Shown here piece by piece: positions 7,736 to 20,186 of a stretch of 26,212 nucleotides of DNA (position 1 is its first letter; each line of letters opens with the position of its first letter). The notes under the pieces were generated by a model, which saw nothing but the letters and a program-made list of their open reading frames with translations, made no database searches and was not told the origin of the DNA. The translations under genes and the position numbers were made by a program. Source of the stretch: a virus. The stretch lies in the IMG/VR virus record IMGVR_UViG_3300005935_000111, positions 1 to 26,212 of that record; one strand, 5' to 3'.

Positions 7736-8275
7736 ATGAAAGAACAAAAAAAATTAAAGCCTGTAACATTTTTAAAGGGTCACTATAATTATTATCGTGA
7801 TAATAAATTTCAACAAAATCTTCTTTTAAAAGCATTACAGATAACGACTGATCCAAATGAATTAAAAAAAATGATTGGGGTTAAGAGGGTTGCTGATGTT
7901 TATCGCACTTTAGATAAATTGGCTATTAGAAGGGAATATCATGAGGCGTTGGTGGCTGCTGGAATTGACTTGGATACGATTGTGGCTGGTATTAAGGATG
8001 TTGCTGATAATGCTTCTCCAGCCATTAAATTGCAAGCTTGGCAGACTTTGATGAAATCTCTTGGTCTTGATAGGTATGAAGAAAGTTCAGATGATAAAGC
8101 AAAGGGTTGGGAAGATATATTAATTCAGACGATAGATGAAAATGAAAAAAAAGGATTGCCAGAACCAAAAAATATTAAAGTAGCTGATTATGAAGTAATA
8201 GAACCTGAAATGCCAGAAGAAGAGAAAAAGAAACAGGAAGAAGAAGAAAAAATTGGTAAAGAATTATATGAATAA
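7736..8275 (+). CDS. terS: Terminase small subunit (TerS), 179 aa
   Basis: The N-terminal half has small helices typical of TerS DNA-recognition domains (FQQNLLLKALQITTDPNELK, GVKRVADVYRTLDKL). The oligomerisation-like segment ALVAAGIDLDTIVAGIKDVA ahead of KLQAWQTLMKSLGLD is the best-conserved part of phage TerS relatives. The C-terminus is acidic/Lys-rich (EEEKKKQEEEEK), probably contacting TerL. TerS recognises viral DNA and stimulates the TerL ATPase. Its stop overlaps the terL start by 8 nt, implying coupled translation. Confidence 0.82.
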   Translation: MKEQKKLKPVTFLKGHYNYYRDNKFQQNLLLKALQITTDPNELKKMIGVKRVADVYRTLDKLAIRREYHEALVAAGIDLDTIVAGIKDVADNASPAIKLQAWQTLMKSLGLDRYEESSDDKAKGWEDILIQTIDENEKKGLPEPKNIKVADYEVIEPEMPEEEKKKQEEEEKIGKELYE

Positions 8276-11200
8276 TAAATATGATGAAAAAAAGTTATTT
8301 GAGAATTTAAAAGATCCTAAAAAATATTTAGAAAATTTTTGTAAAATAAAAACCAAGAAGGGTGGACTTCGTCCGTTCATTTTAAATGAAGCTCAAAAAG
8401 ATATATTCAATACAATTAAGAATCATAATCGTGTGATGATCTGCAAGGCTCGCCAAATTGGATTTTGTTTTCATCCATATACAAAAATATTAACTAGTGA
8501 ACTTAGGTGGAAAAAAATAGTTGATTTAAAAGTTGGTAATAAAATAATTGCTAGTGATGAAAGTGTTAATGGTGGTAGAGGTTCATCAAGAAAAATGAGA
8601 ACTGCTATTATTGAAGGTAAATCAGAGGTTTATGAATATTCGATTAAATTAAAAATGGATGATGGTAGAGATTTGATATTAACACCAAGTCATAGAATGT
8701 TATGTAAGGTAAGAGGTGCTGTTCATACTCAATGGAGAAAGGCAAAAGATATTAGAATTAATGATGAAATAAGATATATAACTAAAATATGGGATGATAA
8801 TAATAATTATGAAGATGGATGGATTAGTGGAATAATAGATGGAGAAGGATGTCTTAGAACAAAGAAAAATGCTGGAACAGAATTAACAATTAGTCAAATT
8901 GATGGTTATGTATGGGATAGAATCTTAAAATATTTTGGAGATAATAATTATTCATATAGAGTAGAGGTTGATAAAAGGTTATCTGGTACTAGTAGTAAAT
9001 ATGGAAGTAAACCAGTAAATAAACTTGTTCTTAATAAAATGGATGAATTGTTTTATTTAATTGGTAAAGTACGACCATCAAGATTTATTGATAGACATTG
9101 GTGGGAGGATAAGAAATATCCAAATAATGGTTGGTTAAAAGTAAGTAGTATTGAATTACTTCCAAGACAAAGAATGATAGATTTGCAAACATCAGAAGGT
9201 ACATATATAGCAAATGGATTTGTTTCTCATAATTCTACGGCAATCACTGGCTACTTCTATCATAGTACAATTATGAATCCTGGAACCACCACTGCTTTGA
9301 TTGGTTATAATAGTGATTTGGTTTCTGAATTATTAGATAAGGTAAAAACATTTTATAGAACTACTCCGCCGTCTATAAGGCCAACTATTAGATATAATTC
9401 TAAATATGAAATTAGTTTTCCAAAGACGGATTCTAAGATAATGATTTTACCTTCATCAGAGAATGTTGGTAGTGGATATACTTTGAATAATTGCTTGTTG
9501 ACTGAACTTCCAAAAATTGAAAAAGCAGAAGAAAAGATGGCTTCGTTATTTCCTGCTGTTCCTTTAAATGGTAAGTTTGTAATTGAAAGTTCACCGAAAG
9601 GACAAGGTAATCTATACCATCGAATGTGGATGACTGATAATGAATGGGTAAAGAAAAAATATGGTTGGTGGTGGGGATATTGTTTAGATGATGAAACAGA
9701 AATTTTAACTGTAAAAGGTTGGAAAAATAGAAAAGATTTTAATATTGGCGATAAACATTTTACTGTTAATTTGAAAACAAAAAAATTAGAAATTAAAAAG
9801 GCAACAGATAAATTTGAATATGATTATGAAGGTAATATGGCGCATTTTGAAAGTCATAATTTAGACATGTTAGTGACTCCGAATCATAAATGTATTTATC
9901 AACGTTATCATAGTTATAATGGTAGTAAGGACTGGAAAGATAATTGGATGTTAAAAATGGCTAGTGAATTTAATACTAATGATGTGATACCAGTTTCTAC
10001 AATGGGTTGGCATAAAAATAAGGTAAAAAAGTATACTGATGAATTTGTTGAATTAATTGGTTGGGTTATAACAGAAGCAAGTTATGAAAGATATTTAATA
10101 TATATATATCAGAATGTTGGTAAAAATTTAGATAGAATAGAAAATTTGTGTAAAATATTAGGATTAAAATATACAAGATACATAAGGAAAAATAGAAATT
10201 CTGGCGAGATTAGGATACATTCACAATCAACAAAAAATATTAGAAAAGTTTTATCAAAAAGTAAAGAATTACCTTTAAAATTTATTTTAAGTTTGACTTA
10301 TGGTCAAATGGTTCTATTACAAAAAACAATGATAGAAGGAGATGGTTGGAATGACGGTGGTGGGGGAAGTTTTGTGCAAAAAGATAAAGATGTTTCTAAT
10401 AATTTTCAGATATTAACTACTTTAATAGGAAATACATCTAGAATAAAGCAAAATAAAAGTGAGGATAAATGTTATATTGTTAAGATTAAAAATGCTGAAA
10501 CGGCGCGAAAATTTTCTATAAAAAATAAAAGATATAATGGAAAAGTTTGGTGTCCTACTAATGATAATGGAACTATAGTTATTAGAAGGAATGGTAAAGT
10601 GATGATAACTGGTCAGAGCAAAGAAGAAATAAATCAGATTAAAAATGAAATTAATAATCCTCAAATTTTTGCTCAAGAATACGAAATGGAATTTCTTGCT
10701 TCTGGACGTTCAGTTTTTGACCAAAATGTAATTAAAAAACAGAGAAAAAATGTTTTGGAAGTTGGTGATAAAGTTAAATTAGATGATGGTACTGAATTTA
10801 TAGTTTATGAAGAAGATGGATTTATATTTTATGAACCAATAGATAAAAATGGCTTATATATATTTGGATGCGATTCAGCAGAAGGCGTAGAAGGTGGAGA
10901 TTATTCAACTGCTATTGTGTGGAATAGAAAAACAGGGAATCAAGCTGCCATGTATCGCGATCAGATTGCGACAGATAGATTTGGTGAGTTATTGGATAAG
11001 TGGGGACGAAGATTTAATAATGCTTTGATGGTGGTTGAACATAATTCGTGCGGACTGACTGTTATACTTACTTTGAAGAAATTGGTATATCCGTCAATGT
11101 ATTTTCGTCCTACTAAAGTTGAATCAATTAGTTCCAGTTATACTGATAAATTAGGATGGCGGACAACAGGAGCTAACAAACAGAATTTAATTGATGATTA

Positions 11201-11429
11201 TGCTCAAGTATTGCGAGATGATGGATTGATAATTCATAGTAAGATTTTGTTGGATGAAATGTCAGTATTCATTTATGATGATAATAATAATATGAAGCCA
11301 CAGCCAGGATTTCATGATGATACGATTATGGGCGCGGCTATTGGATTCCAAGGATTCAAGATAATGTATGGTGGAAAGTTAGAACAGTTAGATTATGAAA
11401 ATTATATGCCTAAAAGTTTTGCTTATTAA
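8268..11429 (+). CDS. terL: Terminase large subunit with two inteins, 1053 aa precursor
   Basis: TerL packages DNA into the procapsid using an N-terminal ATPase and cuts concatemers with a C-terminal RNase H-like nuclease. Removing the two inteins (8466-9233 and 9681-10616) leaves an extein of about 485 residues. The Walker A-like ARQIGF-S is rebuilt across the first junction. Then come LLTELPK as the Walker B region (Thr where Asp is common) and ESSPKGQGN as the coupling motif. The nuclease acids are in IFGCDSAEG, VVEHN and FHDDTIM. I chose ATG 8268, which overlaps the terS stop, rather than an in-frame TTG at 8253. Confidence 0.95.
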   Translation: MNNKYDEKKLFENLKDPKKYLENFCKIKTKKGGLRPFILNEAQKDIFNTIKNHNRVMICKARQIGFCFHPYTKILTSELRWKKIVDLKVGNKIIASDESVNGGRGSSRKMRTAIIEGKSEVYEYSIKLKMDDGRDLILTPSHRMLCKVRGAVHTQWRKAKDIRINDEIRYITKIWDDNNNYEDGWISGIIDGEGCLRTKKNAGTELTISQIDGYVWDRILKYFGDNNYSYRVEVDKRLSGTSSKYGSKPVNKLVLNKMDELFYLIGKVRPSRFIDRHWWEDKKYPNNGWLKVSSIELLPRQRMIDLQTSEGTYIANGFVSHNSTAITGYFYHSTIMNPGTTTALIGYNSDLVSELLDKVKTFYRTTPPSIRPTIRYNSKYEISFPKTDSKIMILPSSENVGSGYTLNNCLLTELPKIEKAEEKMASLFPAVPLNGKFVIESSPKGQGNLYHRMWMTDNEWVKKKYGWWWGYCLDDETEILTVKGWKNRKDFNIGDKHFTVNLKTKKLEIKKATDKFEYDYEGNMAHFESHNLDMLVTPNHKCIYQRYHSYNGSKDWKDNWMLKMASEFNTNDVIPVSTMGWHKNKVKKYTDEFVELIGWVITEASYERYLIYIYQNVGKNLDRIENLCKILGLKYTRYIRKNRNSGEIRIHSQSTKNIRKVLSKSKELPLKFILSLTYGQMVLLQKTMIEGDGWNDGGGGSFVQKDKDVSNNFQILTTLIGNTSRIKQNKSEDKCYIVKIKNAETARKFSIKNKRYNGKVWCPTNDNGTIVIRRNGKVMITGQSKEEINQIKNEINNPQIFAQEYEMEFLASGRSVFDQNVIKKQRKNVLEVGDKVKLDDGTEFIVYEEDGFIFYEPIDKNGLYIFGCDSAEGVEGGDYSTAIVWNRKTGNQAAMYRDQIATDRFGELLDKWGRRFNNALMVVEHNSCGLTVILTLKKLVYPSMYFRPTKVESISSSYTDKLGWRTTGANKQNLIDDYAQVLRDDGLIIHSKILLDEMSVFIYDDNNNMKPQPGFHDDTIMGAAIGFQGFKIMYGGKLEQLDYENYMPKSFAY
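8466..9233 (+). mobile_element. Intein 1 in TerL (Walker A site), 256 aa
   Basis: Begins with Cys (CFHPYTKILTSELRWKKI, block A) and carries RDLILTPSHRML (block B). It has one clear LAGLIDADG motif (ISGIIDGEGCL, about intein residues 120-130) and ends TSEGTYIANGFVSHN, followed by extein Ser. Splicing joins RQIGF to STAITG, restoring the ATP-binding loop. The insertion point inside an essential active-site motif is classical for inteins. Only one LAGLIDADG motif is obvious in the endonuclease part, so homing competence is uncertain. The splicing residues look intact. Confidence 0.93.
9681..10616 (+). mobile_element. Intein 2 in TerL, 312 aa, ending in Gln
   Basis: Begins CLDDETEILTVKGWKNRKDF (block A) and has LDMLVTPNHKCIY (block B). 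Two DOD motifs follow: LIGWVITEAS (degenerate, Ala for Gly) and MIEGDGW. It ends RNGKVMITGQ before extein Ser (SKEEINQIKNEI). The terminal Gly-Gln replaces the usual His-Asn. Gln-ending inteins are known and can cyclise, but the missing penultimate His may slow splicing. The flanking extein reads WWWGY then SKEEI, a normal TerL sequence across the junction. Confidence 0.9.
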
Positions 11430-11451
11430 TAAAAATAAATAAATAAAATAT

Positions 11452-13515
11452 ATGGCAGCTGAAACTTATACATCAGGAATGTATGGTAATAAAGAAGTAA
11501 ACATGATGAAAAAATTTAATTTGCAGGTTGATGATGCAAGGAATTATTTTGTTGCGATTACTAAACCTCGTCTTGATCGTTCTTATAAACTCTATATTGC
11601 TGATAATACTGATAGGGCAAAAGAAATAGATCCATGGCAAGCTAATATTGCCGTGCCATATATTCAAGGCGTGATAGAAACTTTAAAGCCTAGAATTTTA
11701 GATGCTCGTCCAGATTTTTCAGTTCAGGGTAGGAATAAAGATGACCAGCCGAAAGCTACTAGGATTCAATCGTTGGGTGACTTTACGTGGGAAATAGCTG
11801 AAGGTGATAAGACCGCAGAATTAGTATCTAGTTCATCATTAATTTATGGAACAGCTTTTTTGCAGGTTAGTTGGAAGAAAGATGTTAGAACCCATAAATT
11901 TTTACAAACCAAAGATTTGTCTAAAAAGAAATATGTTTGGAAAGAAAAGGAACAGGTTTTTTATGATGCTCCTTATGTTGAATGGGTAGATAATTATTCT
12001 CTTTGGTATGATTGGCACAATGTTGACAGAGAAAGCAAACAGTATTGGTTTAAGCGTAGAATTTTGACTGGCGTTGAAATTAAAAGGCGTTATAATATGG
12101 CTGATAAAAAAAGATTAGCAATGGCGCTGGAAAAGCCAGGAGGAGATTTGACAAATTATGGTTCAGTCAGGACACAAGTTAAACTTGACCATGAAAAGAT
12201 TACTAAAGGAGCTGATTATAAAAGTAGTGTGACGGGATTGACAAATGAAACTTATCAAGCTAATGCTGATCCTGATTTAAAGATGTATGAAGTTTTTGAG
12301 TGGACTCGTCCATTTGATGATGCTTATGCGGTAATAGTAAATGGGGTACCAATTTTAAAAGGCGGTTTTATTCCTATGATTTATGATTTTAAGGAAACAA
12401 CATTTATTGAAATTCCTTATTTGAGAATACCTGGAGAGTTTGAGGGTTATGGCATTCCAATGATTTTGGAAAATCCTCAAATAATGCTTAATATGATTAA
12501 GAATCAGAGATTGGATGCCACTACTTTAAATATTCATAAAATGTGGGTGGTTAATCCATTGGCGAATATTGATAAGAAAGATTTGGTGACTCGACCATTT
12601 GGTATAATTTATTCAACCGATCCTAATGGTGCCAGAGAAATTCAGATGTCTGATATTAAGCCTAGTGCTTATAAGGAAGAAGAATCATTAAAGAGTGACA
12701 TGAGATATGGTTCTGGTGTTGATGATTTTTCAATGGGTATTGGTGGATCATCTGGAAGTGCGACTGAAACTAGACACTTGCGCGAATCAACATTAGAACG
12801 TGTTAGATTATATGTTAATCATTTGGGTGAAGGTTATGGTAAAGTATTACGTTATTGGATTTCTATGTATAGTCAATTTTGGACAAAGGAAATGATTATA
12901 AGGATTACTGGTGAAAATGGAACTGTAGAATTTCCGATAATTGAGAAGGATGATTTGAAAGGTGAATTTGATATTAAGGCTACAGTGATTCCATCTATTG
13001 CTGGACAGAATGATGTTAAGAAAAAACAAGATATGGATTTGTTTCAGTTATTGGTTGAAATGGAATTTATTGATCCTGAGAAACTTACTGCTAAAATGTT
13101 ACATGATTGGAATTGGGATCTTCAGTCGATCAAAAGAACAGAAGAACCTCAAATGCAAGGAATGCCAGGAATGATGCCAGGAGAAATGCCACCTGGAGGC
13201 ATGATGCCAGGAGGTATACCGCCTGCTGGAGTACCGCCAACTGGAGGAAAAGGTGTGCCAAATAAAATTGCTAAGGAAGCTTTGGCTATGCTTGGCGCTG
13301 GCGCTGGAACTCCATCTCCTTTTGGAGAGGCTGGCATGCCGATTAATTTATTACAGGCAGGAGCACCACCTACGGCAAGAGGAATTCCTGCGCCTAAGAC
13401 TACTAATCCAAGGGGGATGAATCGTGGTGGAAAAATTAATACTAATATATCTCAAAAAGCACCTAATGGAATTGAAGCGCAGTTGAATCAACAATCAAAA
13501 AATATTCAAAGATAA
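11452..13515 (+). CDS. Portal protein, 687 aa
   Basis: Follows terL by 22 nt, the standard place for the portal, and has the length of P22-like portals. The N-terminal region reads YIQGVIETLKPRILDARPDF, typical of the wing/stem-proximal part of phage portals. Later it has PYLRIPGEFEGYGIPMILEN, then MLNMIKNQRLDATTLNIHKM and TETRHLRESTLERV, matching the long clip/stem helices. The C-terminal 130 residues are a Met/Pro/Gly-rich repeat (PGMMPGEMPPGGMMPGG) likely disordered inside the capsid. The portal forms the dodecameric DNA gate. No Shine-Dalgarno sequence; AAAATAT precedes ATG. Confidence 0.92.
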   Translation: MAAETYTSGMYGNKEVNMMKKFNLQVDDARNYFVAITKPRLDRSYKLYIADNTDRAKEIDPWQANIAVPYIQGVIETLKPRILDARPDFSVQGRNKDDQPKATRIQSLGDFTWEIAEGDKTAELVSSSSLIYGTAFLQVSWKKDVRTHKFLQTKDLSKKKYVWKEKEQVFYDAPYVEWVDNYSLWYDWHNVDRESKQYWFKRRILTGVEIKRRYNMADKKRLAMALEKPGGDLTNYGSVRTQVKLDHEKITKGADYKSSVTGLTNETYQANADPDLKMYEVFEWTRPFDDAYAVIVNGVPILKGGFIPMIYDFKETTFIEIPYLRIPGEFEGYGIPMILENPQIMLNMIKNQRLDATTLNIHKMWVVNPLANIDKKDLVTRPFGIIYSTDPNGAREIQMSDIKPSAYKEEESLKSDMRYGSGVDDFSMGIGGSSGSATETRHLRESTLERVRLYVNHLGEGYGKVLRYWISMYSQFWTKEMIIRITGENGTVEFPIIEKDDLKGEFDIKATVIPSIAGQNDVKKKQDMDLFQLLVEMEFIDPEKLTAKMLHDWNWDLQSIKRTEEPQMQGMPGMMPGEMPPGGMMPGGIPPAGVPPTGGKGVPNKIAKEALAMLGAGAGTPSPFGEAGMPINLLQAGAPPTARGIPAPKTTNPRGMNRGGKINTNISQKAPNGIEAQLNQQSKNIQR

Positions 13516-13529
13516 ATAACTAGAAAAAT

Positions 13530-13820
13530 ATGGCAACCTCTAAAACAAAGAATAGTTGGGTAAAACGTTTTTTAAAAAAAGCTAAAGATGTTACTAGTTC
13601 TAAAATGGTTCTTCCCCAAAGGGGATATTATGCAGTAAGAGATTGGACTAGAAAGGAAAAATTAATTTCCAAAAAAGCACATGAAAATACAAAGAAAAAA
13701 TATGGTGTTGAAAGTGTTAAAGGAGGAATTGGAAAACAGGCATTTGCCGAAATGAAAGCTAAAGAAATACATCGATTGAAAAAAATACTTAAAAAACAAA
13801 AGGAAGAAGCTAAAAATTAG
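13530..13820 (+). CDS. Small basic head-region protein, 96 aa
   Basis: Very Lys-rich throughout, with a helical C-terminus (AEMKAKEIHRLKKILKKQKE) and a short conserved-looking core (LPQRGYYAVRDWTRKEKLIS). It lies 14 nt after the portal gene and is co-oriented with the capsid genes. Strong positive charge suggests DNA contact inside the head. No family recognised. Confidence 0.7.
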   Translation: MATSKTKNSWVKRFLKKAKDVTSSKMVLPQRGYYAVRDWTRKEKLISKKAHENTKKKYGVESVKGGIGKQAFAEMKAKEIHRLKKILKKQKEEAKN

Positions 13821-13843
13821 AGATAAATAATAAATAAAAAATT

Positions 13844-14179
13844 ATGAAAAAAGAAACAAAACTAAAAAAAGAAGAAAAAAAAGAAGAAAAAAAAGAAGAG
13901 AGAGTAATCATTCCAATAGGAGAAATGACTAAAGATATTATGGAAGATTTATTGGTTGAATTGTCTTATTCTGTCTATTGGCCAGCAATTATGAGTTATT
14001 TTGAAGGCAGAAGAATATATGTAAGGGATGGAATAGCAAGCGTTGATCCATTTAAAGAACCCACTTTGGTAGCCAGATATCAAGGAAATTTACAGAGTTT
14101 AAATGATTTGTCAGATGCTATTGAAGTAATTAAAAAAGATAGAAAAAAAGCAGAAGAAAATGAGAATGATAAACAATAG
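13844..14179 (+). CDS. Hypothetical head-region protein, 111 aa
   Basis: A Lys/Glu-only leader (about residues 1-20) precedes a compact domain: EMTKDIMEDLLVELSYSVYW, then YFEGRRIYVRDGIASVDPFK. A charged helical tail (EVIKKDRKKAEENEN) follows. Not recognised. The position between portal and scaffold is where head-completion, decoration or protease genes often lie, but no protease or completion motif is seen. Confidence 0.7.
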   Translation: MKKETKLKKEEKKEEKKEERVIIPIGEMTKDIMEDLLVELSYSVYWPAIMSYFEGRRIYVRDGIASVDPFKEPTLVARYQGNLQSLNDLSDAIEVIKKDRKKAEENENDKQ

Positions 14180-14190
14180 ATTGATACTTG

Positions 14191-14199
14191 TGTTATAAT
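14191..14199 (+). promoter_or_regulatory. Extended -10 promoter TGTTATAAT
   Basis: ACTTGTGTTATAAT repeats the operon promoter at 6497-6505 base for base over this block. No usable -35 was seen at 16-18 nt, so activity would rely on the TGn element. It would start transcription about 13-15 nt before the ATG at 14219. Confidence 0.5.
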
Positions 14200-14218
14200 A
14201 ATTAAGTAATATAAACAC

Positions 14219-14377
14219 ATGCCTTATCCAGGAGTTTCAAAATCTAAAGAAAGTAAGATGGAACGTTGTGTTGCTAAAGTAAAAGCAAGTGGAGATAATG
14301 TGAATCCCTATGCTGTTTGTTTTTCTTCTATAATGGGAAAAACATTACATAAGAGAAAGAAAAAAGCTGAAAAATAA
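14219..14377 (+). CDS. Small phage protein with MERC motif, 52 aa
   Basis: Reads MPYPGVSKSKESKMERCVAK, then VKASGDNVNPYAVCFSSIMG. The pattern K-M-E-R-C-V-x-x-V...N/A-x-A-x-C-x-S-S-I occurs in many tiny phage and virus proteins of unknown role, often near structural genes. It has a Lys-rich tail. It is preceded by its own extended -10 element (14191-14199). Stop at 14375-14377, 9 nt before the next gene. Confidence 0.7.
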   Translation: MPYPGVSKSKESKMERCVAKVKASGDNVNPYAVCFSSIMGKTLHKRKKKAEK

Positions 14378-14386
14378 GTTAAATAT

Positions 14387-14695
14387 ATGCCAAATAACAA
14401 AGAAAAAAGAAAAATTCTTGACAATGTATTGGGCAAAATAAAAATGCATGATGCTGGGATAAAACGTAATAAAATAGAAGATATGCCTGAGATGGCAAGT
14501 AAATCTCGCATTAATTATCCATCGCTTTATTTGAATGTAAAACAAGCTCCAGAGTTAAAGGGAAGTGATGTGCATGATGGTATTACTTTAGTTATTAAGG
14601 GAAAAGTTATATCTCATTCAGTGGATGAAAATATTAATAGTGATTCTAGAGAAACATTTGATATTCAAATTAATAAGATTGGTATAATTAAGTAA
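14387..14695 (+). CDS. Capsid-staple-like small protein, 102 aa
   Basis: The N-terminal 40 residues are basic (KEKRKILDNVLGKIKMHDAG), followed by YPSLYLNVKQAPELKGSDVH, then ITLVIKGKVISHS and a terminal FDIQINKIG. The Y-P-S-L-x-L...P-E-L...L-x-x-x-G-K-V pattern of a small beta-barrel resembles the phage capsid staple family, which clamps capsomers on the mature head. This is from memory of the pattern, not an alignment; the alternative is an unrelated head-decoration protein. The location between portal and scaffold fits. Confidence 0.55.
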   Translation: MPNNKEKRKILDNVLGKIKMHDAGIKRNKIEDMPEMASKSRINYPSLYLNVKQAPELKGSDVHDGITLVIKGKVISHSVDENINSDSRETFDIQINKIGIIK

Positions 14696-14702
14696 TAAAT
14701 AT

Positions 14703-14957
14703 ATGACAAATAATGAACCACTTCATACACTTGGTGTTAAAACTACTGCTGATTCATTAGGTGAAGGCAGGCTTAAAGTTGGTATGGGTAGGAGAAAAAA
14801 AAGAAGAGTTCTTAATAAAGTTTTAGACGGAGTTGGTACTGGTAATCGTAGAGCTGGCAATCCGAGAACAGATGCTGAAAGACGAATTCGTCATAAAAAA
14901 CTATATGGTACTTTAGATGATTTTCCTAAAAAACGAAGGTTTGCTAATCAAATATAG
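14703..14957 (+). CDS. Small basic phage protein, 84 aa
   Basis: Arg/Lys-rich (GMGRRKKRRVLNK; GNPRTDAERRIRHKKLYGT). The segment N-P-R-T-x-x-E-R-x-x-R-H-K-x-L-Y-G is reminiscent of small basic phage head-region proteins. No enzymatic motif. It starts 7 nt after the previous gene. Probably virion DNA-associated; function unknown. Confidence 0.65.
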   Translation: MTNNEPLHTLGVKTTADSLGEGRLKVGMGRRKKRRVLNKVLDGVGTGNRRAGNPRTDAERRIRHKKLYGTLDDFPKKRRFANQI

Positions 14958-14979
14958 ATAATGTTTAAATAATAAATAT

Positions 14980-15375
14980 ATGGCATTAAAAGATAGAAAA
15001 CGACAATTAGTTAGGGATAGGGTAAAACTATCACAACCTGCTTTAATAGGAGCAAAACAAACAAGAAGATTAGGAGGAGAATCAGACTTCTCTTTATCTG
15101 CTGCTGTTAAAAAACTTCCACCAAGAGTTTCAAACAAAACTCTAGCAAGTAAAGCAGAATTATTAAAGGCTAGTAAGGCTAGTAGAAGACCAGGTTTACC
15201 AAAAATACTACAACCAATAACAAGAAGACCACCAGAATCACCAATACCAACTAGATCAGACCCTGGTGGAAGGACTATTGATAATTCAAAACAGCGAAAA
15301 AGAAAAAGACAAACAGTAAGAGAAAGATTAAGCAGTTTAACTGGATCTGAATCATTTGGTTTAAAAAGAAATTAG
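14980..15375 (+). CDS. Basic low-complexity protein, 131 aa
   Basis: Arg/Lys/Pro/Ser-rich throughout (LKASKASRRPGLPKILQPIT, then RRPPESPIPTRSDPGG), predicted disordered, ending RERLSSLTGSESFGLKRN. No domain recognised. It continues the unusual run of small basic genes between portal and scaffold. It may be an internal head protein neutralising DNA charge. Confidence 0.6.
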   Translation: MALKDRKRQLVRDRVKLSQPALIGAKQTRRLGGESDFSLSAAVKKLPPRVSNKTLASKAELLKASKASRRPGLPKILQPITRRPPESPIPTRSDPGGRTIDNSKQRKRKRQTVRERLSSLTGSESFGLKRN

Positions 15376-15398
15376 TAAATAAAGAATAATATATAATT

Positions 15399-15629
15399 AT
15401 GAATTTAAAAAAAGTAAAACGTCCTTCTTCTCAAGCTAAAAAAGTTTCTGAAGCCATCAAAAAATTGGGTAAAAAGAAAAATGAAGTTAAAGAAGGGGTT
15501 GATTTGTCTAAAATGGCTCAAAAGCTTTTTAAAAGAAAGTCGAAGCAAGAACAAGAAGAACAAGAAGAACAAGAAGAACAAGAAGAACAAGAAGAACAAG
15601 AGGAAGAGGAAACAAATGATGAAGAATAA
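15399..15629 (+). CDS. Lys-rich protein with EQE tandem-repeat tail, 76 aa
   Basis: A basic N-terminal half (KKVKRPSSQAKKVSEAIKKL) is joined to an acidic tail of repeated Glu-Glu-Gln units encoded by a 9-bp tandem repeat (about 15546-15603, CAAGAAGAA). The opposite charges of the two halves suggest a self-complementary or DNA-mimic protein. The repeat is likely length-variable. It lies just upstream of the scaffold gene. Function unknown. Confidence 0.6.
   Translation: MNLKKVKRPSSQAKKVSEAIKKLGKKKNEVKEGVDLSKMAQKLFKRKSKQEQEEQEEQEEQEEQEEQEEEETNDEE
15546..15603 (+). repeat. 9-bp tandem repeat (CAAGAAGAA) coding EQE tail
   Basis: About six consecutive near-perfect 9-bp units keep the reading frame, so gain or loss of units changes the tail by three residues without a frameshift. 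Confidence 0.8.
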
Positions 15630-15657
15630 TTTTGAAGGAAACCTTAAGGTCTTTTAA

Positions 15658-15677
15658 AATTATTGATTTTAATAATT
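15658..15677 (+). promoter_or_regulatory. AU hairpin in scaffold gene leader
   Basis: AATTATT (15658-15664) pairs with AATAATT (15671-15677) around GATTTT, 18 nt before the scaffold ATG. A smaller AAGG-AAA-CCTT hairpin lies at 15635-15645. Role unknown; it is one of several hairpin leaders in this arm. Confidence 0.4.
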
Positions 15678-15694
15678 AATTATGAAATAAATTT

Positions 15695-16612
15695 ATGCCA
15701 GAAGAAAACAAAAATGGGTCCGCAATTGCTCCTGAAAATGAAGCAAACAAAGCGGGTAGCCCTGATAATCTTATTCAAAAAGAGGCTGATCCTAATCTAG
15801 GCGGAGAAACAGGGGAATCAGCGGCAACAACACCGCCCAAAGATGAAAAAAGTAAAGAAGATGATAAAGACAAAGATGATAAAGGCGCTAAAGACGCTGA
15901 AGCTAAAGAGGAAATGGTGCCTATATCTCAATATGAAAATTTAGAAGAGAAACTTGGCGAACAAGGGAACGAATTGGGAGAGTATAGAGATTTTTATGAA
16001 AAAATTTCTCCTTTCCTTGATAAAGTTGATGAACAGCCTGATTTAGTGAAAGCTATAATGGCTAATAAAATTACTCCCGAGTTAGTCGAGTCTGTTTTGA
16101 AAGGAAAGGTTTCTACTAAAGAAGCCGAAACTGTTACCGAAGCTCATAAAAAAGTTAAAGAACAATTAGGTAAAAAGGAATATGATAAAACTTCTCCTGA
16201 GGATATCGAAAATATGGTTTCAGAAAAGGTGAAAGAAGGTGTTAGTGAAGCAAAAAAAGAATTTGATAAAGGTTTAAATAGTGTCAAAGAAGATGCTGAA
16301 TCTGATAAGTTTGAGCGTCAATTAACTGCTTTTATTGAAAAGACTCCTGATTATGCTGATTATGCAGAGGATATCCAAAAATGGTTTGGTAAGAATCCAA
16401 CTCAGTATGATATTAAAATTGCTTATGATGTGGTTAAGGGTCAAGTCTTGGCTGATAAAGTTGCTAAAGATGCTACCGAAGCTGATGGTGAAGCTGGCAA
16501 AGATATTGCTGGCAATGCTGCTGGCGGTGGTTCTCAAACAGCTGGTGTTATTGAAGATAAGAAGTTAGTTGATGAGTTGATTGCTGATAAAGCAAATCCT
16601 AATGTTTTTTAA
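15695..16612 (+). CDS. Scaffolding protein, 305 aa
   Basis: Placed directly before the capsid gene. It is highly acidic and largely helical: a disordered N-terminus (DEKSKEDDKDKDDKGAKDAE), then coiled-coil-like segments (EMVPISQYENLEEKLGEQGN; VTEAHKKVKEQLGKKE; MVSEKVKEGVSEAKKEFDK). It ends in a Gly/Ala linker and a helix (KLVDELIADKANPNVF), the usual capsid-binding C-terminus. Scaffolds template procapsid assembly and leave before DNA entry. No protease motif is seen. The call rests on position, composition and length. Confidence 0.82.
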   Translation: MPEENKNGSAIAPENEANKAGSPDNLIQKEADPNLGGETGESAATTPPKDEKSKEDDKDKDDKGAKDAEAKEEMVPISQYENLEEKLGEQGNELGEYRDFYEKISPFLDKVDEQPDLVKAIMANKITPELVESVLKGKVSTKEAETVTEAHKKVKEQLGKKEYDKTSPEDIENMVSEKVKEGVSEAKKEFDKGLNSVKEDAESDKFERQLTAFIEKTPDYADYAEDIQKWFGKNPTQYDIKIAYDVVKGQVLADKVAKDATEADGEAGKDIAGNAAGGGSQTAGVIEDKKLVDELIADKANPNVF

Positions 16613-16650
16613 ATTTTGTTTGTGGGTATTCGTAACGCACATTTAAAAAA
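16605..16650 (+). promoter_or_regulatory. Hairpin leader before major capsid gene
   Basis: TTTTTTAAA (16605-16613) is complementary to TTTAAAAAA (16642-16650). Between them, TGTG-G-GT (16621-16627) pairs with AC-G-CACA (16635-16641) around ATTCGTA. The left arm includes the scaffold stop codon. No trailing U-run follows, so it is not a simple terminator. It may stabilise or separate the capsid mRNA. Confidence 0.45.
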
Positions 16651-16669
16651 TAACTAAATTGTTAAATAT

Positions 16670-17923
16670 ATGGCAGAATATCCATATCACAGTGAACCTA
16701 CCCATGATCGTGGTTCGCTTGTTACTGCTGCACGTACTACCGCTGTATCAAAAGCTGAAGGTAAGTTAAAGTTAGATGTTGTAGATAAGATACATCTTTT
16801 GGAACCTGCCAAGCATCCATTAACTACTTTATTGACTCAGGTTGGTAAGGTATACGATGGTAAGGCTTGGACTGGAACAGGAATGCGAAAAGCATCCTGT
16901 GGAAATCCAGAATTTGGTTGGCTTGAAGATTACTATGGCGGAAGATACGCTAAAGTTAATGCCGTTTATGGTGTTGGTGACCCAGTTACTATTACTGTAA
17001 GTGGTGCTGGTGCAAGTTCGGCTCATATTTTCACTATTGGAGATATGATCATGAATGCTAGAACTGGTGAGAGAATGTCAGTTGCTACTGTCGCTGTTGG
17101 TGGTGTAACTGAAATTACTGCTAATCGTTCTATAGGTACAACTGCTGCGGCTGCTGGTCTTATTGGTGATGGCTTGTACATCATTGGTAATATCAATGAA
17201 GAAAATGCTACAGCAAGGAACGTTAATACAACTCGTTCCGCAAAACAAACCAATTTTACTCAAATTTTTAGACGCACAATTGCACTTTCTCGAACTGAAA
17301 TGAAGTCTGATGTGTATGGTGAGAAAGACCTTTCATATCTTAGAGCAAAATTGGGTACAGAACATTTACTAGATATTGAGAGAGCCTTTATTTGGGGTGA
17401 AAAAAATGATGGAACTGGTACCAATGGCCTTCCTGAACGTAATACTGGTGGTGTCCTCGAATTTATTGAGGGAAGCCAGGCTTACATTCAGAACGTAGGC
17501 GGCATATTAACTGCTCCTGATTTCAACACATTTTTGCGTGAAGGTTTCACTTATGGTGATACTGAAAAGCTATTTATGTGTGGTGGTGTTGTATTACAGG
17601 CTATTAATGAATTTGCTAGAGGTCAAATCCAAATGAAACCTCTTGCAAAGAGTTATGGCATGCAAATACAGGAATACACAACATCATTCGGTAAGATTAA
17701 TTTAGTCCATAATCCTCTATTTGTTGAAGATTATTCTGGCTATGGATTCTTGCTTGACATGAATTGTTTCAGATACAGGTACATGAATGAAAGTGATACT
17801 CACTTGAATACAAACATTCAAATTCCTGGAACTGATGGTATTGTTGATGAATACTTGACTGAATGTGGATTGGAAAGAAAGGAACCAGGCAGATGTGCTC
17901 TCTTAAAAGGAGTGACAGCCTAG
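16670..17923 (+). CDS. Major capsid protein, SU10/DUF5309 type, 417 aa
   Basis: Recognised as the SU10 major-capsid (DUF5309) family. The N-terminal RGSLVTAARTTAVSKAEGKL and KIHLLEPAKHPLTTLLTQVG are followed by a beta-rich insertion (about residues 95-185) and NFTQIFRRTIALSRTEMKSD. Next come LLDIERAFIWGEK, a C-terminal NVGGILTAPDFNTFLREGF and the closing GIVDEYLTECGLERKEPGRC. It forms the HK97-fold icosahedral shell. Length and order are typical of the family. Ends with TAG. It is flanked upstream by the scaffold and downstream by a free-standing HNH gene. Confidence 0.95.
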   Translation: MAEYPYHSEPTHDRGSLVTAARTTAVSKAEGKLKLDVVDKIHLLEPAKHPLTTLLTQVGKVYDGKAWTGTGMRKASCGNPEFGWLEDYYGGRYAKVNAVYGVGDPVTITVSGAGASSAHIFTIGDMIMNARTGERMSVATVAVGGVTEITANRSIGTTAAAAGLIGDGLYIIGNINEENATARNVNTTRSAKQTNFTQIFRRTIALSRTEMKSDVYGEKDLSYLRAKLGTEHLLDIERAFIWGEKNDGTGTNGLPERNTGGVLEFIEGSQAYIQNVGGILTAPDFNTFLREGFTYGDTEKLFMCGGVVLQAINEFARGQIQMKPLAKSYGMQIQEYTTSFGKINLVHNPLFVEDYSGYGFLLDMNCFRYRYMNESDTHLNTNIQIPGTDGIVDEYLTECGLERKEPGRCALLKGVTA

Positions 17924-17984: not shown

Positions 17985-18446
17985 ATGAAAATTAGATGCA
18001 CAAAATGTTCTTTACTTCTTCCTGCTGAATCTTTTTATAATGATAAAAAGAAAGATAATGGTAAAAATTCGTGGTGTAAGACATGTTTTAGTAAAAACGT
18101 GAATGATCGCTATAAAACTCCTAAGGGCAGATATACAACCTTGAAAAAGGATGCTAAAGCTCGTGGGATATCATTTTCTATTACTTTTGAGGAATATAAT
18201 GGAATTAGGAAAGATAATTGTGACTATTGTGGCGCTAAAGTGACTAATGCTGCTGGAATAGATCGCTTAGATAATTCTAAGGGATACGAAATCGGCAATG
18301 TTATAGCATGTTGCAAATGGTGTAACTATGCTAAGGGAACTTGGTCTGCAAGAGCGTTTTATGAAAAATGCTCATTGGTAGTTAAAAACTTTCCAAAACA
18401 ATACAGGGAAAAAGGAGTAAAGTATACAGATGATTTAAAGCGTTAA
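17985..18446 (+). CDS. Free-standing HNH endonuclease, 153 aa
   Basis: An N-terminal zinc ribbon (CTKC near residues 4-7, CKTC near 32-35) is followed by a basic segment and an HNH variant core (about residues 78-120). That core holds CDYCGAKVTNAAGIDRLDN, GYEIGNVIACC and KWCNYAKG. In this subtype IDRxD...GYxxxNVxxxCxxCNxxK replaces the canonical first His. It resembles phage homing endonucleases sitting next to conserved genes, here right after the major capsid gene. It has its own promoter and hairpin leader, unlike the neighbouring structural genes. Confidence 0.88.
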   Translation: MKIRCTKCSLLLPAESFYNDKKKDNGKNSWCKTCFSKNVNDRYKTPKGRYTTLKKDAKARGISFSITFEEYNGIRKDNCDYCGAKVTNAAGIDRLDNSKGYEIGNVIACCKWCNYAKGTWSARAFYEKCSLVVKNFPKQYREKGVKYTDDLKR

Positions 18447-18450
18447 AACT

Positions 18451-18561
18451 TTAGATATATCCTTCAGGGCGGTGGGATATTAAAAATCACCGCCCTCTGG
18501 GAGTATGACTCCTAGTCCCACATGTCCTTGGGTAAATGGACTGTCTGGGTTGTCCCCAGAC
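18451..18561 (+). ncRNA. Structured leader RNA, copy 1
   Basis: Hairpin A is GGGCGGTG/CACCGCCC (18467-18474/18488-18495). Hairpin B is GGGAG/CTCCT (18499-18503/18509-18513). Hairpin C is GTCC/GGAC (18524-18527/18538-18541) with loop TTGGGTAAAT. Hairpin D, GTCTGGG/CCCAGAC (18543-18549/18555-18561), is present only in this copy. Copy 2 at 19303-19389 keeps the order, linker lengths and loop bases while the A, B and C stems change with compensation. ATCC before hairpin A can pair with GGAT in its loop in both copies. It lies in the leader of the 18585 gene. Not a riboswitch class I recognise. Confidence 0.8.
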
Positions 18562-18584
18562 CTAAAGAAATAACTATTAAATAT

Positions 18585-19298
18585 ATGGGAAAATCTATGG
18601 AATCTGCAATAATGCAGGATTTACTAAGCGGAACAAAGGCAGCAATGCATGTTGCCAATGGAGATGTTGCTATTCGTTTAAAATATAAGGGTAGCGGTAC
18701 TGTTACGACTGTAGTTGTTGATACTAATCAAGATATTACTTTGACTTCTTCTGATGGTGGTACTGAAGAATTCTTGTTTGCTGATTTTATTACTATGGGA
18801 TCGTTAGTTGATGCGATTAGTGGCAGTAATTATTGGGAAGCTAAGTTGCTTGATGCTTTAAGGGCAGATTTAACTGCTGGTAATCCAATGGTTGATGATG
18901 CTGGTCTTACTATTACTGCTGATGGTTATTATGATTGTCTGATTGATACTAATGTTGCATTATCATTAACTTATCGTTGTACTTACGACCGTAATGTTGG
19001 TGCTGAAGTTCCTGGTGGAAATCATCGGGTAGCATTGAAAGAATTCACTTATTGGGCAACTTTAGGTAATGCTTCTGTTAATGATGTTCAAGTATGGGAA
19101 TATGATCGTCAGAATAATACTGAAAATCAGATTTTTCAGGCGCTTTCTGTAACTGATAATACTGAAACTTCTAATTTTGCTGGTGGTCATGGTGAACTTT
19201 CAGCTGGTTTCAATAATGATATAATTGTCAGAATTGTTGATGATACTTCATTAGCTGATGCTGGCGCTTATCTACAAGTACGGTACATTAGAGAATAA
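18585..19298 (+). CDS. Virion protein paralog 1, 237 aa
   Basis: I use the ATG at 18585 (MGKSMESAIMQDLLSGTKAA). An in-frame ATG at 18522 would translate part of the structured leader, and the 18585 start aligns with the paralog at 19415. The beta-rich sequence contains VDTNQDITLTSSDGGTEEFL (nearly identical in the paralog), then FADFITMGSLVDAI, LVDALRADLTA-like, TYRCTYDRN and the closing VRIVDDTSLADAGAYLQVRY. The position after the capsid gene suggests a decoration, head-tail connector or tail protein; the family is not identified. Confidence 0.72.
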   Translation: MGKSMESAIMQDLLSGTKAAMHVANGDVAIRLKYKGSGTVTTVVVDTNQDITLTSSDGGTEEFLFADFITMGSLVDAISGSNYWEAKLLDALRADLTAGNPMVDDAGLTITADGYYDCLIDTNVALSLTYRCTYDRNVGAEVPGGNHRVALKEFTYWATLGNASVNDVQVWEYDRQNNTENQIFQALSVTDNTETSNFAGGHGELSAGFNNDIIVRIVDDTSLADAGAYLQVRYIRE

Positions 19299-19302
19299 AC
19301 AA

Positions 19303-19389
19303 TAGATATCCTTCAAAGGGCTGGGATGCTAAAATCAGCCCTTTCTGTAGGTTTAACTTACGGTCCGAAAAAGCCACGGGTAATTGGCT
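19303..19389 (+). ncRNA. Structured leader RNA, copy 2
   Basis: Hairpin A is AAAGGGCTG/CAGCCCTTT (19315-19323/19336-19344). Hairpin B is GTAGG/CTTAC (19347-19351/19357-19361). Hairpin C is AGCC/GGCT (19372-19375/19386-19389) with loop ACGGGTAATT. The B loop (5 nt), the B-C linker (10 nt) and the C loop (10 nt) are the same lengths as in copy 1. Shared unpaired bases include ATCCTTCA before A, GGAT and TAAAA in loop A, and GTCC after B. It precedes the second paralog. Confidence 0.8.
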
Positions 19390-19414: not shown

Positions 19415-20152
19415 ATGGGTTCTCTAAATTCAATAAAACTAAGAAACGCATTAAAGTCTGGAATGACTGAGGTTCATGTAGCTGATACTCCTGTCGCTAT
19501 TCGAATGAAATATATTGGCAAGGGTTCAGTTACTGGCGCTCAAATAGCAGTTGATACTGACCAAGATATTACTTTAATTACTTCTGATGGTGGTACTGAA
19601 GAATTCTTGTTTGCTGATTTTCTTACCATGGGAGCTTTGGCTGAGGCTATCAATAATAGTATGTATTGGAATGCTGAATTAGTTGATGCTCTTCGATCAG
19701 ACTTAACGGCTACTTCGCCATTCGTTGATGACCTTACAACTGATCCAACTGGCGCTGGTTATTATGAAGCTTACATTGATACTGATATTTCAAAGCGTTT
19801 AACTTATAGATGCGCTTATAACCGAAATCCAAATGGTGAGAATGGAGTTGATTCATCTAGGGCAAAAGGCGCTCATCGAGTAAGTTTGATAGGATTTACT
19901 TACTATTGTAATAATGGCGGTGATGAAATTAATGGTGTTCAGGTTTGGGAATATAATCCTGTGCTTCAGACTGAAACTCAGGTTTATCAGGCGATTGGTA
20001 TAGATTCTGTTTCAACTACTGTTAACTTTGCTGGTGGAGAAGGTGTAATTACCTCTGATTGGGGTAATGATTTGATTGTTCGAATTCAAGATACAGCTGG
20101 TACTTTAGCTGATGCAGGTCTTATATTAGAAGTTTCTTACGAACGAGAATAA
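19415..20152 (+). CDS. Virion protein paralog 2, 245 aa
   Basis: Paralog of 18585-19298 along its whole length. Shared blocks include VAIRMKYIGKGSVTG, VDTDQDITLITSDGGTEEFL, FADFLTMGALAEAI, LVDALRSDLTA, LTYRCAYNRN, HRVSLIGFTYY, VQVWEYN and a C-terminal LIVRIQDTAGTLADAGLILE. Two extra short insertions (NGENGVDSS and DLTTDPTGAG) distinguish it. Tandem duplication with divergence suggests two positions in one structure, or antigenic/host-range diversification. It is followed by a clear terminator. Confidence 0.75.
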   Translation: MGSLNSIKLRNALKSGMTEVHVADTPVAIRMKYIGKGSVTGAQIAVDTDQDITLITSDGGTEEFLFADFLTMGALAEAINNSMYWNAELVDALRSDLTATSPFVDDLTTDPTGAGYYEAYIDTDISKRLTYRCAYNRNPNGENGVDSSRAKGAHRVSLIGFTYYCNNGGDEINGVQVWEYNPVLQTETQVYQAIGIDSVSTTVNFAGGEGVITSDWGNDLIVRIQDTAGTLADAGLILEVSYERE

Positions 20153-20163
20153 AATACTAAATT

Positions 20164-20186
20164 GGGAAGTGAAAACTTCCCTTTTT
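20164..20186 (+). terminator. Rho-independent terminator
   Basis: GGGAAGT (20164-20170) and ACTTCCC (20175-20181) form a 7-bp stem with a GAAA loop, followed by five T. It ends the capsid/paralog transcript. Confidence 0.85.

Follow-up and report, generated by a model that had tools for sequence, protein, structure and literature searches.

A conserved double-pseudoknot leader RNA upstream of a gene family that follows the major capsid gene in phages of probable Patescibacteria

Head-gene region and the two leader copies

The window, by which we mean the whole stretch of DNA analysed, is a virus record of 26,212 bases that contains the head-gene region of an SU10-related phage. The gene order is terminase, portal, a scaffold-like gene, the major capsid gene, an HNH endonuclease gene and two paralogs of 237 and 245 codons, each with its own leader directly 5'. 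The features are listed in order of position.

16670..17923, plus strand: SU10-like major capsid protein gene (Pfam PF17236, E 2e-48), upstream of the leader
17985..18446, plus strand: HNH / endonuclease VII-type free-standing endonuclease gene (PHROGs 1035 and 3118), at the 5' edge of leader 1
18457..18541, plus strand: leader RNA copy 1, core of pseudoknot 1, hairpin B and pseudoknot 2 (covariance model R1, 74.3 bits; hand annotation checked against the sequence)
18457..18496, plus strand: copy 1 pseudoknot 1, from pseudoknot search and sequence layout (S1a ATATCC 18457-18462, L1 TTC, stem A 18466-18474, S1b GGATAT 18475-18480, L3 TAAAAAT, stem A' 18488-18496)
18497..18516, plus strand: copy 1 hairpin B, which abuts both pseudoknots directly
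18517..18541, plus strand: copy 1 pseudoknot 2 (S2a CCCA 18517-18520, stem C 18524-18528, S2b TGGG 18529-18532, L3' TAAA, stem C' 18537-18541)
18543..18561, plus strand: copy 1 extra hairpin GTCTGGG/CCCAGAC after pseudoknot 2, from the sequence
18585..19298, plus strand: gene 1, probable virion or decoration-type protein (237 aa, pI 4.3; start by homology)
19307..19389, plus strand: leader RNA copy 2, core of pseudoknot 1, hairpin B and pseudoknot 2 (R1, 79.4 bits)
19307..19344, plus strand: copy 2 pseudoknot 1 (S1a TATCC 19307-19311, L1 TTC, stem A AAAGGGCTG 19315-19323, S1b GGATG 19324-19328, L3 CTAAAAT, stem A' 19336-19344)
19345..19363, plus strand: copy 2 hairpin B, CTGTAGG/CTTACGG
19364..19389, plus strand: copy 2 pseudoknot 2 (S2a TCCG 19364-19367, stem C AGCCA 19372-19376, S2b CGGG 19377-19380, L3' TAAT, stem C' 19385-19389)
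19415..20152, plus strand: gene 2, paralog of gene 1 (245 aa, about 50% identity to gene 1)
20164..20181, plus strand: terminator-like hairpin closing the module after the last paralog, found by scan (equivalents lie 3' of the gene in relatives)

A listed ATG at 18522 falls within leader 1 and is not the start of gene 1, which homology puts at 18585. Intein-type domains (LAGLIDADG and intein splicing) occur in the terminase gene (8253-11429), probably as two insertions. A second record, L035 (IMGVR_UViG_3300031227_000360), is 100% identical to the window over the aligned parts (window 8829-16931), with the stretch 15060-15228 aligned twice.

A sequence-only reading of this region had described two copies of three successive hairpins with compensatory base changes. 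Stem A is present where that reading had placed it, as GGGCGGTG/CACCGCCC in copy 1 and AAAGGGCTG/CAGCCCTTT in copy 2, and stems B (GGGAG/CTCCT to GTAGG/CTTAC) and C (GTCC/GGAC to AGCC/GGCT) read as described, with B loops of 5 nt and C loops of 10 nt in both copies. The ATCC/GGAT pairing that it proposed also exists and links the loop of A to the 5' flank. Its extent had been understated: copy 1 pairs over 6 bp (ATATCC/GGATAT), copy 2 over 5 bp (TATCC/GGATG). Hairpin B likewise has 7 bp in both copies, more than was noted, and stem C belongs to a second pseudoknot that had gone unseen (CCCA/TGGG in copy 1, TCCG/CGGG in copy 2). The top pair of stem C in copy 1 is U-U. The extra hairpin at 18543..18561 recurs in a subset of relatives (e.g. 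L030 and L033) and is missing in copy 2; CTTTAG (18449-18454) could pair with CTAAAG (18562-18567), a closing helix that is found in copy 1 only.

A search for H-type pseudoknots scores copy 1 at 39.0 and copy 2 at 33.5, against 10-26 in dinucleotide shuffles; thus the two folds are not due to chance. A covariance model, R1, which was built from 20 leaders including both window copies and describes the nested stems only, finds the two leaders with E of about 1e-22, and the next-best place in the window scores 7.9 bits.

A family of leaders in related phages

Searches with the gene 2 protein alone returned no relatives, including none among 50,697 annotated phages, and the way in was the capsid gene. 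A capsid protein search gave ten loci at 61-100% identity, and a capsid protein alignment extended these to 44 viral loci and nine loci in metagenome-assembled genomes (MAGs). Whenever a member of the paralog family comes next after the capsid gene, a leader of like kind occupies the gap 5' of the first such gene. We annotated 31 intact copies on 27 phage contigs, each checked to read exactly from the sequence, and all lie upstream of this one gene family after the SU10-like capsid gene.

In the core, two H-type pseudoknots flank a hairpin, with essentially no linkers in between. In pseudoknot 1, S1a (4-6 nt) pairs with S1b; L1 is mostly 3 nt (UAC, UUC, UCG), stem A is mostly 9 bp and usually topped by U-A and G-C pairs, and L3 is AUAAAU-like. 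Hairpin B varies in size, from a tetraloop hairpin of 12 nt (CCCC GCAA GGGG) to a branched domain of 86 nt in L118. Pseudoknot 2 has S2a (CCCG or UCCG), L1' (ACAA or AUUA), stem C (mostly 5 bp), S2b (CGGG), which pairs with S2a, L3' (UNAU) and then C'. Its nucleotides CCCGA...ACGGGUNAU are conserved beyond what pairing requires and include unpaired bases. The leaders are intergenic and begin 6-81 nt past the upstream stop, barring insertion of an endonuclease gene, and the tail from C' to the start codon is 15-67 nt long (48% A, 35% U, 8% G). In eight loci (L046, L048, L081, L092, L095, L104, L028 and L117) a further hairpin lies directly 5' of S1a (e.g. GACATC/GATGTC, GGCAT/ATGCC, CCTAA/TTAGG) and appears to covary.

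Covariation and the selected strand

Compensatory changes between the two window copies had been taken as a sign of selection on the fold, and the covariation of the homologs strongly supports this, pseudoknots included. Cases in which related phages no longer pair the stems would have refuted the proposal; these were sought and none was found, as the fold is kept in all 31 intact leaders. In an ordinary MAFFT alignment of 20 members that was not guided by structure (A5), 95.3% of pair cells form standard pairs, against 67.5% in shuffled alignments and no more than 45% when slid. The same alignment shows two-sided changes in 27 of 30 pairs, and its covariation score is 0.717 against 0.204. Pseudoknot 1 is the best pseudoknot in nearly every leader in the search with shuffles.

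Exchanging 3' strands between sequences destroys pairing: full pairing of own versus swapped strands is 97% versus 2% for A, 71% versus 10% for S1 and 80% versus 24% for C. The mean complementary run between a leader's own flank and its own loop is 4.58, against 3.38 when swapped, a value reached in none of 20,000 permutations, and the result holds when the GUCC/GGAC group is cut to one member. S1 occurs in 23 distinct pairings (e.g. AUAUCC/GGAUAU, AAAUCG/CGAUUU, AUUCUC/GAGAAU and GCCC/GGGC). S2 is nearly invariant, and its support comes mainly from changes of CCCG/CGGG to CCCA/UGGG, UCCG/CGGA and CCCC/GGGG. On a tree of the downstream proteins we infer 27 two-sided changes in S1, 87 in A, 4 in S2 and 33 in C. 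Because the stems used in the strand-exchange, tree and G-U/A-C analyses had been picked for their pairing, the argument rests on the MAFFT-based and swap controls. Across the leaders G-U pairs outnumber A-C by 64 to 6, and thus the plus-strand RNA is the selected molecule.

Linkage to one gene family

Over 506 kb, R1 gives 33 matches. All 31 leaders are among them, 11 of which were outside the training set; the other two are the interrupted L072 leader and one duplicate record, and nothing unrelated was found. In phage contigs of 65-98 kb the only copies are those 5' of a gene of the paralog family, and in 107 related cellular genomes the model finds nothing except in the phage contig of the MAG with L118. 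Weak matches of 13-15 bits were dropped since they lie inside coding-size frames of 201-541 codons.

No Rfam 15 family matches the window or the leaders at the curated thresholds, and among ten relatives the only Rfam 15 match is to RF00028, a group I intron that lies away from the leaders at 4734-4962 of L117. The 224 candidate RNAs of Weinberg et al. 2017 are families that reportedly entered Rfam. A strict pattern for pseudoknot 1 (ATCCTTCA...GGGAT..TAAAA) over viral contigs hits 25 loci, none with the fold. In the open literature on phage pseudoknot leaders, tandem pseudoknots at capsid genes and phage structured RNAs the element is undescribed; subscription papers were not covered.

The copies follow the gene. 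Two paralogs with two leaders occur in the window, L027, L048 and L117, which bears out the suggestion that the leader was copied along with its gene and maintained afterwards. In L071 and L091 only the first of two paralogs has a leader, the second following about 34-38 nt later, and L031 has neither a gene of the family nor a leader. From these patterns, the leader travels with the gene and one leader may precede two genes. What we observe is an RNA fold conserved on the plus strand and linked exclusively to one gene family; we name it the double-pseudoknot leader and infer from the linkage that it is an intercistronic RNA acting in cis on that gene.

A long hairpin of a different kind, GCTCTGCTCTGACT...GCCAG...AGTAAGAGCGGA, is conserved in distant, MAG-borne relatives without a gene of the paralog family (L119, L120, L122 and L126), where it lies between the capsid gene and the one that follows.

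Endonuclease genes at the leader

An HNH gene ends just 5' of the leader in the window, L046, L082 and L100. In L072 an HNH endonuclease gene interrupts the leader within stem A' (L072:4370-4990), so that the stem reads CAC, the HNH gene bounded by an inverted repeat, and then CTCTCC. Joined, the two halves would pair at all nine positions with GGAGGGGTG (one G-U). A perfect 18-bp inverted repeat, AGAAGGAGCTAGATCTCT / AGAGATCTAGCTCCTTCT, joins both halves and forms a helix in the predicted fold, with hairpin B and pseudoknot 2 intact. The arrangement resembles endonuclease genes borne in helices of self-splicing introns. In L033, L034, L048, L072, L100, L110 and L117 the major capsid gene itself lies in blocks separated by introns or inteins.

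Downstream protein, translation context and hosts

The downstream gene had been called a virion gene. It invariably follows the major capsid gene and its product has a beta-rich predicted fold, which makes a structural virion protein likely; proof by structure is lacking, as structure searches with the protein gave no confident match. Complete members are acidic (pI 4.1-5.3).

Nearly all genes of the window and its relatives lack a Shine-Dalgarno motif, and none precedes the leader-bearing genes. Since the whole phage group lacks the motif, we rejected the leader as a specific substitute for it. Many starts in these phages are preceded by A/U-rich stretches with AUUAAUUA. The mean unpaired probability around the start is 0.544, equal to that of other genes (0.544), so the leader is not a switch that hides the start. 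We also rejected readthrough from the TAG of the capsid gene into the leader, as the frame closes soon (L029 sequence). The leader does not qualify as an intrinsic terminator, because across the family neither pseudoknot is followed by a U run; a terminator scan within the leaders flagged only stem C of copy 2. Elsewhere in these phages, an extended -10-like motif (TGnTAnnnT) lies shortly 5' of the portal ATG in L046, L048, L095, L096, L099 and others, suggesting leaderless messages.

One leader-bearing phage contig is binned in a MAG of 0.5 Mb whose relatives have genomes of 0.4-1.0 Mb, and distant capsid relatives occur in Parcubacteria, Nomurabacteria and Magasanikbacteria MAGs. Thus the hosts are probably Patescibacteria, an assignment that rests on one MAG contig and on distant relatives in Parcubacteria-type MAGs. 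RNase J scores above the cut-off in 30 of 31 genomes around the MAG that holds the family member, and RNase E/G was found in none of the 31. With RNase J present and RNase E/G absent, a processed messenger is probably threatened by decay that starts at its 5' end.

Possible functions of the leader

Everything beyond a conserved RNA linked to one gene is inference. The earlier suggestion of a translation control or stability element fits the evidence, with the mechanism itself inferred. HNH genes sit repeatedly at or in the leader, as would be expected of a DNA-level element (a recombination, nicking or homing-endonuclease site) or of mere inheritance after duplication without RNA function; the strand-specific excess of G-U over A-C (64:6) and the very many compensated changes contradict this, and we give it practically no credence. 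A metabolite riboswitch is also extremely improbable. Riboswitches commonly have pseudoknots and conserved loop bases, but here no Rfam family matches, a virion gene would be an unusual target and there is no evident expression platform, the start being unsequestered and no U run following the knots. A compact fold adjoining head genes recalls packaging or assembly RNAs such as the pRNA of phi29, and an RNA of this type could be encoded beside the gene by chance, freed by processing and active in trans. However, copy number tracks the gene (usually an own copy per paralog, none in L031), as cis action predicts, which makes a trans-acting RNA very unlikely.

That the leader recruits or positions ribosomes, or insulates its gene from ribosomes ending upstream, would suit phages whose leader-bearing genes have no Shine-Dalgarno motif and whose leaders lie only a few to tens of nucleotides past the upstream stop. 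We nevertheless consider such a translation enhancer improbable, given that nearly all genes without the motif manage without a leader, start accessibility is ordinary, the spacing to the start varies and the second paralogs of L071 and L091 have no leader. A translational operator is the main rival to the reading that we favour, even if it too seems unlikely. A phage or host RNA-binding protein would recognise pseudoknot 2 (and 1), spread over or act on the A/U-rich stretch before the start codon, and repress or time translation, as T4 gp32 does at its own leader. The layout matches that of T4 gene 32, where an unstructured, UUAA-containing stretch rich in A+U comes after a coaxial pseudoknot (PMC3014915); the tails of the present leaders are 83% A/U with 8% G, and pseudoknot 2 has conserved unpaired bases. 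Against this, the downstream gene probably encodes a structural protein and not one that binds RNA or DNA, the acidity of the product makes direct autogenous binding unlikely, the distance from knot to start varies from 15 to 67 nt, and UUAAUUAA stretches also occur 5' of other, leaderless genes in the same phages.

We favour a 5' stability barrier over a protein-bound operator, tentatively and with confidence that stays short of even, in the absence of transcript data and with resistance to RNase J being inferred. The preference rests on the presence of RNase J in 30 of 31 genomes, the absence of RNase E/G from all 31, and the finding that RNase J1 is stopped mechanically by a knotted RNA of viral origin (PMC5760640). 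The capsid transcript would be cut upstream of the leader, and RNase J, the 5'-to-3' exonuclease of the host, could be halted by the tandem knots on reaching the 5' edge of either pseudoknot. What remains would be a long-lived messenger for the downstream structural gene, its 3' end presumably closed by the terminator-like hairpin, and the amount of the downstream protein could then be set independently of capsid protein. A single leader before both paralogs, as in L071 and L091, is what one protected dicistronic messenger would allow. Several points speak against a barrier: conservation of pseudoknot 2 beyond pairing suggests a binding partner and not a bare obstacle, the assignment of the hosts is thinly based, a barrier could in principle serve any gene but is found at one only, and the fold is unlike the flaviviral ring with its three-way junction. 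The full claim, that a DNA phage of Patescibacteria has in its tandem pseudoknots a bacterial counterpart of viral exonuclease-resistant RNAs and that mechanically stopping RNase J sets the dose of a virion protein, is one we regard as possible though doubtful.

Significance and comparison with known systems

Starting from two copies on one contig, the analysis arrives at a new and clear-cut RNA family whose covariation is unusually strong and includes two pseudoknots. Structured phage leaders with pseudoknots are rarely documented. The element marks a group of phages of probable Patescibacteria, in which little is known of gene control, and it is small and self-contained, so that one in vitro assay and one reporter could separate an RNase J barrier from an operator.

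The tandem pseudoknots of the STAXI motif (RF01728) are likewise found in bacterial DNA and also near mobile elements (PMC2864571). STAXI, however, repeats a pseudoknot unit two or three times near DNA-handling genes of Enterobacteriales, and the leaders do not match RF01728. The fold of the ribosomal protein S15 (rpsO) operator involves the ribosome-binding site, whereas the start codon lies 15-67 nt outside the fold of the new leader. Both are pseudoknots in an mRNA, that of rpsO being part of a translational operator (mentioned in PMC3014915).

Flaviviral exonuclease-resistant RNAs (xrRNAs) are, like the leader, compact pseudoknotted RNAs, placed 5' of a stretch that they protect or, for the leader, would protect, and one of them stops bacterial RNase J1 (PMC5760640). 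They belong to RNA viruses and form a ring around the 5' end; the leader consists of serial H-type knots in a DNA phage, and its resistance is untested. The defining three-way junction with a threaded 5' end is not met, as the leader is serial and has no obligatory junction.

The gene 32 leaders of T4, T2 and RB69 are alike in having a coaxial H-type pseudoknot, then an open A/U-rich stretch containing UUAA, then the start (PMC3014915). Thus one hallmark of the T4-type operator, an H-type pseudoknot 5' of an A/U-rich start region, is met. The other, a position before the gene of a single-stranded DNA-binding protein, is not: the gene 32 leader is bound by the product of that gene, while the new leader precedes an acidic, probably structural family after the major capsid gene. 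The gene 32 leader also has one pseudoknot, compared with two pseudoknots and a hairpin in the double-pseudoknot leader. A 2010 review considered the T4 gene 32 knot possibly the sole viral example in translational autoregulation (PMC3014915). In general kind, the double-pseudoknot leader meets the description of a phage cis-regulatory structured leader RNA, a conserved fold with covariation that is linked to one downstream gene.
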